In this document: piece after piece, positions 9,387 through 13,290 of the stretch | How the letters are laid out: every line of letters starts with the position of its first letter | How positions within the stretch are numbered: the first letter of the stretch is position 1 | Origin: Candidatus Pantoea bituminis | GTDB taxonomy: Bacteria > Pseudomonadota > Gammaproteobacteria > Enterobacterales > Enterobacteriaceae | Direction: 5' to 3' | Length of the DNA stretch: 64,000 bases | NCBI RefSeq assembly: GCF_018842675.1 | Contig: NZ_JAGTWO010000004.1 | Span: 1,798,001-1,862,000, forward strand | The notes under the pieces: generated by a model | What the model saw: only the letters and a program-made list of their open reading frames with translations | Told to the model about the DNA's origin: nothing | The model's database searches: none | Program-made: the position numbers and the translations under genes

Positions 9387-10805
9387 TCAGTTTACATTTG
9401 CCCGCTGTTGCAAAATTTTTACAGCCTCTGCCGCCTCGCGTCCCAGCTCAGCCAGATCGACGCCGGGAATCACATCATCTTCGACAATCACTTTTCCCTG
9501 GCAGAGCAACATTTTCAATGCCGCGCGTCCGCCACACGCCACTGGCCCGATAGCACTATCATGCAGGCCAAAATAGCGCGGATCGTCAAGTCGATAGACA
9601 GCGATGTCAGCCGCCATCCCCGGGCGAAGTTCCCCCGTATCCAATCCTAATATTTGCGCACCGCCAGACGTTCCCCAACGCACCACATCTTCAATCGTGG
9701 CGGCATCGCCGCCGCCTTCAAAGGTTCCGCCCGCGTAACGCGGTTTCGCCAGCATCCCTTTACGTGCGCGCTGTAATTGCCATGCTGCATGGGTTTCGCT
9801 TTGCATATCTGCGGCTTCATTAGAGGCGGCACCATCCACGCCAATGGAAATTTTCACACCCGCTTGCTCCAGCCCAATTAAATCAGCGATACCGCTACCA
9901 AGCCGCGCATTGCTTTGCGGGCAGTGAGCAATACCTGAGCGCGATGCACCAAGCAGCGCAATCTCGTCAGGCAGCAATTTGACCAGATGAGCAAACCAGA
10001 CATCCTCACCAATCCAGTCATGTTCGGCGCAAAACTGCAAAGGCGTCATGCCAAATTTTGCTTTTGCCGCATCCAGATAATCGACAGTCTCTGAGAGATG
10101 GCTGTGTAAACCAATGCCAAGTTTTCGCGCCAGGCTGGCGCTTTCACGCAATTCTTGCGGCGTAGTTGAATGCAATGTCGTTGTGGGTGCCATAACCACG
10201 CGGCGCATGGCATGTTGGCTCGGTTGATGATAGCGCTGAACCAGCCGTTCGACGTCCTCCATCCATCGATCAAATTTTTCAGGCCGTAAGGCTGTCGGTA
10301 AGCTGCTCTCGAGTCCACGACTTTGGGTGGCGCCGCCCCGGCATAAAACAAAACGCACGCCTAATTTCTGCGCTTCATCAAACAGAATCTCAGCGCCATC
10401 AAACGGCATATCGGGCCAATAAAGATAGTGGTGATCGGCAATCGTGGTGCAACCAGAACGCACCAGTTCAATTAAACCCACACGCGTCGCCACGCGAAAG
10501 GTCTGCTCATCGAAAGCGCCACGAAAACGGTAGGGCGTGGCAGCCAGCCACGCGCCCAGACTCTGATTCAACCCTTGCGGCTCACCTTTTAGTAGAGATT
10601 GAAACAGATGGTGATGGGTATTTACCCAGCCGGGATAGACAACACAATCTCGGGCGTCGACCAGCCTCTCTCCCTGTTGGCATGTCAGGCTTCCCATTTC
10701 AGTGATAATGCCTTGCCGGATGCGAATATCACTTGCAGTGCTGCGCGGCTGTTGGCGGTTTCCCGTGAGAATCGCATGGCAATTTTTGATCAGTAGCGCG
10801 TCCAT
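9387..10805 (-). CDS. 8-oxoguanine/guanine deaminase-like amidohydrolase
   Basis: Metal-dependent amidohydrolase of the ATZ/TRZ-like branch (472 residues) that hydrolytically deaminates N-heterocycles. Closest recognised activity is 8-oxoguanine deaminase; isocytosine or hydroxyatrazine-type substrates belong to the same branch, so substrate is inferred. Metal ligands are visible: NTHHHLF (about residue 63), LHSHLSE (about 236), FAHLVKL (about 270) and GVDGAASNE (about 324). It follows the binding-protein gene by 9 bases and is co-transcribed with it from the minus-strand sigma-54 promoter. The locus is absent from the E. coli arrangement of this region. Confidence 0.8.
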   Translation of the reverse strand: MDALLIKNCHAILTGNRQQPRSTASDIRIRQGIITEMGSLTCQQGERLVDARDCVVYPGWVNTHHHLFQSLLKGEPQGLNQSLGAWLAATPYRFRGAFDEQTFRVATRVGLIELVRSGCTTIADHHYLYWPDMPFDGAEILFDEAQKLGVRFVLCRGGATQSRGLESSLPTALRPEKFDRWMEDVERLVQRYHQPSQHAMRRVVMAPTTTLHSTTPQELRESASLARKLGIGLHSHLSETVDYLDAAKAKFGMTPLQFCAEHDWIGEDVWFAHLVKLLPDEIALLGASRSGIAHCPQSNARLGSGIADLIGLEQAGVKISIGVDGAASNEAADMQSETHAAWQLQRARKGMLAKPRYAGGTFEGGGDAATIEDVVRWGTSGGAQILGLDTGELRPGMAADIAVYRLDDPRYFGLHDSAIGPVACGGRAALKMLLCQGKVIVEDDVIPGVDLAELGREAAEAVKILQQRANVN

Positions 10806-10814
10806 TCTTTCTCC

Positions 10815-11782
10815 TTACAGGGCAGGCTGCGGGTAAAACTGGGTCGTAAACGCGCTCTGCCAGTTAACAGATTTATTCAGCAGGCCAGCGTTAACCATAA
10901 AATCTCGTGTTGCCTGCCAGCGTGCAGGTGTCATGGCGCCAATTCCTTGCTTAGCCGCATCGCCGCCCTCAATGAGATGTAATGTTTTGAGCTGTCCAAC
11001 GCCAAAGGCCAGCACGGCATCGGTCATTTGTGGATTCTCTTTTTTATCAGGGCATTACCGGGTTTAGGATCGCTAAGATAAGATTTCCATCCTTCCATTG
11101 ATGCGGCAACAAAGCGTTTCATGACCTCCGGTTTTTCTGCCAGCAGATCGTCACGCGTGACCAGAATGCCGCCATAAGCGGGGTAGCCGTAATCGGCAAA
11201 AAGATAGAATTTACTGTCCGGTTGAACGGCTTTGATCTGCTGAACTTCTGAAGTGGCATACGCCTGCTGCGACGTATTTTTATCGGCGAGAAAAGGCTGC
11301 ATGTTGAAGGTATAAGGGCGAACCTGAGCGTCGCTGAGCTGATATTTGCTTTTCAACCATGGCCACCAGCTGGCTTGACCGCTGGCAGAAACTAATACGG
11401 TTTTGCCTTTCAAACCCGCCAAAGAATCAACATCGCTGTGGGTGATAATGCCTTGTGGATCAAACTGGAAGGGCGCGGCAATCGCTTTCAGGGGAAAGTT
11501 TTTCGCAATGCCCTGTAGTACCTGAAGGTCATAGCTGATGATGACATCTGCACGCTTTGCCAGCAGCAGCGTCATGTTATTAAGTTGCGGTCCACCAGAA
11601 CGCACCTCAACATCAAGGCCATATTTTTTATAAATTCCGGTGGCAACAGCCTGGTAATAACCCCCTTGTTCTGCTTGCGCAACCCAGGTTGTTTGTAGAA
11701 CCAGTTTGTCTGCGGCGTGAGAGAGGGCGCTAGCACTCATCGCGAAGGTGAAAAGAGATAAACGGAATAACGACATTGACAT
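10815..11782 (-). CDS. NMT1/THI5-like ABC transporter substrate-binding protein (frame break at 11040-11045)
   Basis: Periplasmic binding protein of the NMT1/SsuA type, whose members bind pyrimidine, nitrate, sulfonate or taurine-like ligands. A signal peptide is visible (LFRLSLFTFAMSASALSHA). The mature protein begins KLVLQTTWVAQAEQGGYYQA, where a family ligand-pocket aromatic follows WxAxxE. The frame breaks in the A6 run (minus strand) after NALIKK. One more A joins it to ENPQMTDAVLAFG and gives 322 residues. Start ATG 11782 has GGGGG 5 bases upstream. No permease or ATPase gene is in the module, so it may use a transporter encoded elsewhere. Confidence 0.8.
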
Positions 11783-11946
11783 TGTAACCCCCAATTCAAG
11801 CATGAAAATGCCATCAGGGGATGAGTGGCTAAGCGTTGTGCTCGCGATGCTTATCATCGCCCCCTGACGAGGTACAGCCGAAGCTGCAGAGCAATGTCCC
11901 ACATGGATTCTGCTGCCATGTTGACCGCTTATACTCTGAATTTTTT

Positions 11947-11962
11947 TGCAAGCCACATGCCA
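11947..11962 (-). promoter_or_regulatory. Sigma-54 promoter for the binding protein-deaminase operon
   Basis: Minus strand reads TGGCATGTGGCTTGCA, matching sigma-54 consensus TGGCAYR-N4-TTGCW, with GG and GC separated by the required 10 bases. Predicted transcription start is near 11937, giving a 155-base leader to ATG 11782. Confidence 0.75.
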
Positions 11963-12048
11963 GCTACAAAACGGCGAGTTTATCTCAATGATTATGAAAG
12001 TGATTTTAAAAAAACAGAAAAATCCACTGAGGAGCAGAGTCGCCATTA

Positions 12049-12065
12049 AGCACGCTAATGGCGCA
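12049..12065. promoter_or_regulatory. NtrC-type enhancer site, weaker copy
   Basis: AGCAC-GCTAATG-GCGCA matches the NtrC dyad TGCAC-N7-GTGCA at 8 of 10 arm positions. Its centre is 30 bp (about three helical turns) from the perfect copy at 12079-12095, the same-face tandem arrangement known from glnA. Confidence 0.6.
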
Positions 12066-12078
12066 AAAGGTGCAGAAA

Positions 12079-12095
12079 TGCACATTCTTAGTGCA
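12079..12095. promoter_or_regulatory. NtrC-type enhancer site, strong copy
   Basis: TGCAC-ATTCTTA-GTGCA is a perfect match to the 17-bp NtrC (GlnG) dyad arms. It is about 97 bp upstream of the predicted + strand start (12184) and about 150 bp upstream of the minus-strand start (11937), within the usual enhancer range for both. Confidence 0.75.
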
Positions 12096-12157
12096 TAAGC
12101 AGCGCTTTTGGGCAGCCCAAAAATATCAACGAACTGATTAATAAAGAATTTATGAAG

Positions 12158-12173
12158 TGGCACAGCACTTGCT
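12158..12173 (+). promoter_or_regulatory. Sigma-54 promoter for the dioxygenase gene
   Basis: TGGCACAGCACTTGCT is an exact match to TGGCACR-N4-TTGCW. Transcription would start near 12184, leaving a leader of about 127 bases before ATG 12311. Confidence 0.85.
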
Positions 12174-12215
12174 TGATGACCAGAGAGTAGAAGCTGTCAG
12201 CCGATATCATTCTCG

Positions 12216-12282
12216 GTGGGTCATTGCTCAATCACGTAGTTGTGAAGTGAGGCTTTGACCCGTCGCTCAGGCGTGGGTCATT
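12216..12282 (+). repeat. Direct repeat GTGGGTCATT with an interposed TGACCC in the dioxygenase leader
   Basis: GTGGGTCATT occurs at 12216-12225 and again at 12273-12282. TGACCC at 12256-12261 is complementary to the GGGTCA in both. The element lies inside the predicted transcript leader, so two mutually exclusive hairpins (loops of 32 and 13 bases) could form; it could instead be a protein operator. No known family was recognised. Confidence 0.5.
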
Positions 12283-12310
12283 CGTTGAAAATCGTTAACG
12301 AGGTAGACCA

Positions 12311-13290
12311 ATGACCAATACATCAGCTTATGCATTACATGAGTTATCAAAAGAGTCACGGATGGGTGCGCGAGGCGTGGAAGCAGCACGCGAAGTGCGC
12401 ATTATCGACCTGACCGATTTTGACCAGCGCAAAGAGGAAATAGCCGATCAGGTATGGCAAGCCGCCACCGATATCGGTTTCTTTCAGGTTTCCGGTCATG
12501 GTATTGCTGTTGAAGAGATCAATTCAGCTTTCGCGAATGCAGAGCAATTCTTCGCATTACCCGAAGCCGATAAAGCTCGTCATCCTTTGCGACGTAACGC
12601 AGGGTGGGAATATCGCTCGCAAATACGCCCCTCAACCGGTAAACCCGATCAAAAAGAGTCTTATCAGATTACCCGGCCACGTATGGAAGGGCTGTGGCCT
12701 GACGATGTCACGTTGCCGGGCTTCAAACAGCGCGCGCTGACGTTTGAACGCCAATGCTGGGAAGTGGGAATGAAATTATTATCCTGCTTCGCCATTAAGC
12801 TGGGCATGCCTGAAACGTTCTTTACTCAAGCGCATGATCCGTCGCGTGAGACGTATCAAAGCACCTTACGCATGCTGCACTATTTTGCCATTAGTGGCGA
12901 ACCGGATGGCCCGTGGCGTGCGGGTGCGCATACTGATTTCGATTGTCTGACGCTGCTTTTTCAACGTGATGGACAAGGTGGGCTTCAGGTCTGTCCAGGC
13001 AAAGAGATGGATGAACAAGTCTGGACGCCGATTGAACCGTCAGAAGGGCTGATCACCTGTAATATTGGCGATATGCTAATGCGCTGGAGCGATGACAAAC
13101 TGCCGTCTAACTTTCATCGGGTCAGTAATCCATTGCCGGGCGAATCGGTTCCAGCTCGCTACAGTCTGGCCTTTTTTGCCAGGCCAATGAAGATGTCATC
13201 ATTGAAGGCCCGGAGAAAAAGTATCCTGCCATCTCTGCAAAAGAGTATCTGGCGCAGCGGATCAGCGCGAACTTCTCAGGTAAGTATTGA
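12311..13290 (+). CDS. 2-oxoglutarate/Fe(II)-dependent dioxygenase, isopenicillin N synthase-like (frame break at 13172-13177)
   Basis: Double-stranded beta-helix oxygenase. The N-terminal DIOX_N domain (IGFFQVSGHGI, about residues 56-66) precedes the catalytic core. Iron ligands HTDFD (about 215-219) and NFHRV (about 270-274) and the 2-oxoglutarate-binding RYSLAFF are visible. The T6 run at 13172-13177 breaks the frame; with one more T it continues CQANEDVIIEGPEKKYPAIS and ends at the TGA at 13288-13290, about 326 residues. Its start ATG 12311 has AGGT 6 bases upstream. It is read from a sigma-54 promoter, divergent from the deaminase operon. The shared control region suggests it oxidises the same nitrogen heterocycle; substrate unknown. 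Confidence 0.82.

Follow-up and report, generated by a model that had tools for sequence, protein, structure and literature searches.

Divergent sigma-54 promoters around a putative shared NtrC-type enhancer, each apparently leading into a riboswitch of the xanthine class, in Candidatus Pantoea bituminis

Sigma-54 promoters activated by NtrC, such as that of glnA, carry -24/-12 boxes and are served by tandem palindromes spaced by some three helical turns and located about 100-150 bp upstream, with the consensus TGCAC-N7-GTGCA. The NMT1 motif, the xanthine riboswitch, was reportedly defined in work of 2017. According to the text of PMC7373994 (Yu and Breaker 2020), binding of xanthine was demonstrated for one member of the class (Rfam RF03054), which is reported to be a genetic OFF switch: in a reporter carrying the leader from Hydrogenophaga intermedia, a mutant in a conserved aptamer base was more active than the wild type. 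The same text lists NMT1 binding proteins, PRK12393 deaminases and pcbC-like dioxygenases among the gene types under this riboswitch and leaves open the purpose of cellular xanthine monitoring. By the accessible text of three further papers, the hpx purine-scavenging operons of Klebsiella oxytoca rise in nitrogen starvation (PMC8381380), Ralstonia solanacearum requires rpoN1 for xanthine as a nitrogen source (PMC4676750), and xanthine dehydrogenase and a urate oxidase cluster belong to the common sigma-54 and NtrC targets of Burkholderia cenocepacia (PMC5491218).

The locus described here lies in Candidatus Pantoea bituminis, within a stretch of 64,000 nucleotides that was analysed as a whole (the window; positions are counted from its first letter). 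Two divergent gene sets flank a common control region (Table 1). They look built for purine scavenging; for the amidohydrolase, the next best family after PRK12393 is 8-oxoguanine deaminase. We propose, with a probability of roughly 0.8 and from sequence analysis, that a shared nitrogen-control centre and two transcripts, each predicted to begin with a xanthine sensor, constitute a two-input gate for scavenging purine nitrogen.

Table 1. Features of the divergent locus, in window coordinates
Feature	Position	Strand	Basis or remark
Amidohydrolase PRK12393, second gene of the minus side	9387..10805	minus	NF009059, 753.8 bits (cut-off 543)
NMT1/THI5-like substrate-binding protein gene	10836..11782	minus	Pfam NMT1, 9e-25; frame break ~11036-11045
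GGGGG, probable ribosome-binding site of the binding-protein gene	11788..11792	minus	read in sequence
Putative expression platform: inner hairpin enclosed by an outer stem (GUCAGGGG-type with CCCCUGAU)	11811..11870	minus	alignment A2, 13 leaders
Xanthine (NMT1) riboswitch aptamer, binding-protein leader	11884..11941	minus	Rfam RF03054, 54.8 bits, E 2.1e-11
Sigma-54 -24/-12 box TGGCATGTGGCTTGCA	11947..11962	minus	read in sequence, pattern scan; predicted +1 ~11936
Weaker NtrC-type dyad AGCACGCTAATGGCGCA	12049..12065		2 mismatches in the 10 fixed positions; start 30 bp from that of the strong dyad
Perfect NtrC-type dyad TGCACATTCTTAGTGCA	12079..12095		pattern match
Two overlapping IHF-like sites	12124..12139		one mismatch each; between enhancer and plus promoter
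Sigma-54 -24/-12 box TGGCACAGCACTTGCT	12158..12173	plus	read in sequence, pattern scan; predicted +1 ~12184
Xanthine (NMT1) riboswitch aptamer, dioxygenase leader	12180..12234	plus	Rfam RF03054, 47.3 bits, E 2.6e-09
2OG-Fe(II) dioxygenase gene	12311..13287	plus	Pfam 2OG-FeII_Oxy 6.4e-20, DIOX_N 3.5e-18; frame break ~13171-13183

A sequence-only reading of this DNA had proposed a near-consensus sigma-54 promoter on each strand, and both were recovered, sequence and position alike. Each has GG and GC elements ten bases apart in TGGC and TTGC context, and together they are the only two matches of the pattern TGGCRYRNNNNTTGCW in the window; shuffled windows held 0.46 matches on average, with 7 of 100 reaching two. 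Since the pattern was written to fit both boxes, the shuffles understate chance and conservation is the better test. Both promoters adjoin riboswitch aptamers, which the sequence-only reading lacked. These score above the curated RF03054 cut-off of 36 bits, and the genes they precede are of the types associated with this family (NMT1/tauA, pcbC, PRK12393); their ligand is presumably xanthine. The first G of the GAGTA (GAGUA) motif falls at 11936 on the minus and 12185 on the plus strand, 12 and 13 nt, respectively, after the C of the -12 element. As transcription starts were predicted by counting 12 nt from that C, this spacing places +1 at P1, the first base pairs of the aptamer, so that both transcripts seem to open with a xanthine sensor. 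Divergent sigma-54 promoters and a tandem NtrC-type enhancer between them, as proposed earlier, are well supported. The proposal is incomplete in missing the riboswitch after each promoter: a second control would follow transcription under nitrogen limitation, and both gene sets probably respond to nitrogen hunger and to xanthine.

Conservation in relatives, the check that the sequence-only reading had called for, bears the promoters out. Dioxygenase-like matches were found in 21 of the 40 genomes searched (own genome included), the close ones being loci L001-L006. L002-L005 hold sigma-54 boxes in the same place and riboswitch patterns on both sides, and an Rfam run on L003-L005 put RF03054 above its cut-off on both sides of all three. 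L006 has the dioxygenase gene; the riboswitch pattern had no match in the stretch fetched there, where the upstream part reads, by eye, as the end of an amidohydrolase. Across the family, a search that loses weak matches detected the riboswitch in 23 of 392 genomes, with a divergent pair in 11 of the 23. These 11 together with L002, L004 and L005 make up a set of 14 divergent family pairs that includes the own genome. Sigma-54 boxes lie 12-18 nt from the aptamer on both sides in 11 of the 14; on the dioxygenase side of L045, L050 and L051 there is only a variant box (TGGT or no GC).

The family also contains single-copy riboswitches (L030-L039, L042, L052), preceded by the box TGGCA(T/C)-N5-TTGTAT, with GT replacing GC. 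The gene downstream reads as a binding protein (L032 checked), and in most of these leaders a downstream GCUGAGC offers a possible pairing partner for the GCUCAGC of the aptamer.

The perfect NtrC-type dyad and the weaker one 30 bp away, also predicted by the sequence-only reading, were both found. Dyads matching TGCAC-N7-GTGCA occur at 10 places in the 5.2-Mb genome, compared with 4 for a reversed control pattern, and one of the ten is the strong dyad upstream of the two promoters. A search of the 14 divergent family regions detected a perfect dyad in 6 (own genome included; 0.01 in shuffles), one with at most one mismatch in 9 (0.1) and one with at most two mismatches in all 14 (1.24), extending the conservation from the boxes to the enhancer. 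Two listed NtrC-type sites are 30-31 bp apart in four of the regions (L001, L044, L047, L048), and the IHF consensus has a perfect match in 6 of 14 (0.18 expected). It is plausible that one enhancer pair, about 100-150 bp from each predicted +1, serves both promoters. The sigma-54 boxes might be real and yet answer to another enhancer-binding protein, for example a purine-specific one, a reading to which L040, L043, L048, L050 and L051, where the dyad has two mismatches, lend some weight. We regard it as unlikely, since 9 of the 14 family regions have a dyad with at most one mismatch (0.1 in shuffles) and the genome has a full-length ntrC gene (profile match of 811.9 bits, over the family cut-off), and we infer that the activator is NtrC itself.

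Other elements were seen between the boxes. By eye, a recurring GCAAAA(A)GTTTCA- or CAACTTTTGTTTCAC-like element lies near the NtrC-type sites of L040, L041, L043, L044, L045 and L047. L004 (1252-1329, 100% complementary) and L005 (1257-1329, 96%) have an inverted repeat of 25-27 nt that separates the NtrC-type site from the plus sigma-54 box and looks like a short palindromic mobile repeat; matches to microRNA and other families in these two loci were below their cut-offs, and most of them fell on this repeat.

The position of the box relative to the aptamer can be followed through the riboswitch class. One collection was scanned with a riboswitch-only pattern, which gave at least 119 stretches, and the own and family loci were added; the resulting test set comprises 195 distinct aptamers with 160 nt of upstream sequence from 136 loci, among the matches listed. 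This sample is non-random, some genera recurring in it, and all its counts hold among the matches listed. A strict box, TGGC-N8-TGC, was scored when 12-18 nt separated its -12 C from the aptamer downstream, and expected counts were taken from the rate at offsets 19-139. The strict box precedes 96 of the 195 aptamers (1.6 expected) and a relaxed box 136 (3.7 expected). As the relaxed box was defined after a first inspection of the loci and admits doubtful matches, such as the second Rhizobium copy, the strict box is the fair test. After thinning of similar upstream stretches, 78 (strict) and 102 (relaxed) of 152 remain, whereas other 7-nt windows in the thinned set hold on average 1.37 and 3.06, with maxima of 6 and 8. 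TPP riboswitches served as a control: with minus-strand matches turned round, neither box was found within 160 nt in any of 30 loci. Without turning, the relaxed box appeared in 2 of 30 at 10-20 nt and in 1 of 30 at 12-18 nt; that minus-strand matches need turning is suggested by L046 and by a TPP-like GGGGTGC, which lies near the start of 17 of the 30 loci once turned and of 7 of 30 before turning.

The relaxed box is unevenly distributed over taxa, the genera being grouped here by their usual bacterial class. Among the matches listed, it lies 12-18 nt before 52 of 55 aptamers in the named betaproteobacterial groups (Hydrogenophaga 10/10, Variovorax 12/13, Acidovorax 5/5), 5 of 6 in Acinetobacter and 32 of 54 in loci without a genus label, and before 37 of 40 in the loci of this genome's family. 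Only a minority of the named alphaproteobacterial copies (7 of 17 among the matches listed) fit the coupling, and the second aptamer copies in Chelativorans and Aquibium have no box. None was found at this distance among the listed matches from Marinomonas (0/5), Marinobacter (0/2), Halopseudomonas (0/2) and Thalassobium (0/2). Altogether, a relaxed box at 12-18 nt is missing from 59 of the 195 listed aptamers, some of which have a box 24-42 nt away; both Halopseudomonas and some Marinomonas copies show a similar box 34-42 nt upstream, so that the transcript may start earlier there. The divergent layout, which the sequence-only reading had called unusual, turns out to recur: there are 53 distinct divergent aptamer pairs less than 600 bp apart among the matches listed, and a relaxed box precedes both aptamers in 34 of them and one aptamer in 7. 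Their gaps fall into two groups, of 65-146 bp and 208-325 bp. At the shorter distances (for example, L072 and L112) two sigma-54 promoters must sit nearly back to back and might be mutually exclusive.

Frame breaks affect three unrelated genes of the genome. In tblastn, the L003 relatives of both the binding protein and the dioxygenase align in two frames, and rpoN (G000:C4:3415069-3416465) is split between two frames in the profile match, neither piece reaching the family cut-off. One break in each of three unrelated genes suggests assembly errors; were the rpoN break real, both sigma-54 promoters would be dead in the present genome. That break is what speaks for sigma-70 transcription from elsewhere, with the sigma-54-like boxes arising by chance. 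A simple-pattern scan of 11780-12315 for sigma-70 promoters gave a sole match (9 of 12 positions; 0.8 in shuffles), which is at chance level and downstream of the minus aptamer, and chance boxes would hardly be enriched at one specific position before the aptamer, so that we consider this explanation very improbable. Transcription from the paired sigma-54 promoters remains our reading.

How the riboswitches would act on the transcripts is a separate matter. In the putative platform of the minus leader, the CCCC arm of the outer stem might pair with the ribosome site instead. Alignment A2, of 13 binding-protein leaders, has 91.9% of cells paired over the whole structure of aptamer and stem-hairpin, and 11 pairs changed on both sides versus 5.6 in shuffles, a covariation above all 500 shuffles and all slides, from a structure drawn from one of the 13 sequences and to that extent biased in its own favour. 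Further pair types in A2 were not above chance, 74 of 500 shuffles reaching them. The two-sided changes concern 6 pairs of the aptamer, 4 of 6 in the inner hairpin and 1 of 9 in the outer stem, the element that would compete with the ribosome site and that is 89.2% paired. The GGGGG run is also present in the other A2 leaders, which were chosen by it.

Folding with the aptamer enforced leans towards ON switches in the single-copy and dioxygenase leader groups. With fixed ribosome sites, the mean shift at the ribosome site was -3.2 kcal/mol in 11 single-copy leaders (shuffled +0.3), -1.4 in 14 dioxygenase leaders (+0.1) and a nearly neutral -0.3 in 14 binding-protein leaders (+0.4); for the two leaders of the window it was -2.0 on the minus side (shuffles -0.2) and -0.1 on the plus side (0.3), with a standard deviation of 1.1. 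Among the matches listed, 154 leaders of the collection, mostly from outside the family, gave 93 ON-like and 12 OFF-like calls (shuffles 21% and 19%), with an automatic start finder that chose wrong or doubtful starts elsewhere, for example in the minus leaders of L001, L003 and L004. The published direction is the reverse. If the riboswitches are OFF switches, the gate would be nitrogen limitation AND NOT xanthine, which competes with the ON reading and not with the promoters. This comes close to an even bet: the Hydrogenophaga reporter (PMC7373994) argues for it, and against it stand the ribosome sites, freed by the enforced aptamer more than in shuffled leaders, and the excess of ON-like calls. 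The plus leader of L063 is ON-like in folding and, by gene order (two binding proteins, deaminase and dioxygenase, compared by eye), appears to be the very leader tested as OFF in the text of PMC7373994. Folding here goes against the one reporter result and cannot be trusted alone.

Pairing of the aptamer 3' strand with the start region was considered as a general mechanism and rejected, most leaders being without it. Exact complements of at least 7 nt were found in 20 of 192 leaders among the matches listed (1.3 expected; automatic start finder), and they are striking in the single-copy group (GAGCAATG).

Taken as a working model of the two-input gate, phosphorylated NtrC would bind the tandem dyads in the 250-bp region under nitrogen limitation, and DNA bending, probably by IHF, would bring it to sigma-54 polymerase at either promoter. 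On either side, transcription would then start with the opening nucleotides of a xanthine riboswitch, through which xanthine would determine how far the 2OG-Fe(II) dioxygenase and the operon for the purine-binding protein and deaminase are translated. More tentatively, and at somewhat less than even odds, the class as a whole may be largely coupled to sigma-54: most betaproteobacterial and enterobacterial and some alphaproteobacterial aptamers would begin at a sigma-54 +1, nitrogen licensing the transcript and xanthine gating its translation, with many leaders ON, opposite to the published direction. Such coupling would explain why genes for the import and oxidation of purines carry the class, and would cast doubt on OFF switching as a rule for all its members. 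The recurrent sigma-54 link offers a concrete and testable purpose for xanthine sensing, namely nitrogen scavenging from purines. If true, one sigma factor and one riboswitch class would be joined at an almost constant spacing, the transcript opening with the sensor; to our knowledge, no other such pairing has been described.

The riboswitch, its opposed copies and NtrC/sigma-54 control are each known singly; for their coupling, which recurs in many Proteobacteria, we found no report in the open-access literature and no mention of a xanthine riboswitch-sigma-54 link in the accessible text of PMC7373994, PMC8266621, PMC12316311, PMC5491218, PMC8381380, PMC5748707, PMC3616915 or PMC4676750. The locus resembles the RF03054 systems of PMC7373994, as far as its text describes them, in having the aptamer above cut-off on both sides and the same gene types, and adjacent opposed copies are noted in the legend of its Fig. 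5 for Hydrogenophaga intermedia. A word search of that main text returned no sigma factor and no divergence, nitrogen occurring only in a cited title, and the promoters in it are T7 and, for the reporter, E. coli thiC. With the hpx operons of Klebsiella the locus shares the scavenging of purine nitrogen, raised there in nitrogen starvation; other genes are named for those operons, and the word riboswitch is absent from the main text of PMC8381380. With promoters of the glnA type it shares the -24/-12 boxes and the tandem palindromes. Unlike them, it has one enhancer between two outward promoters and a putative metabolite sensor opening each transcript.
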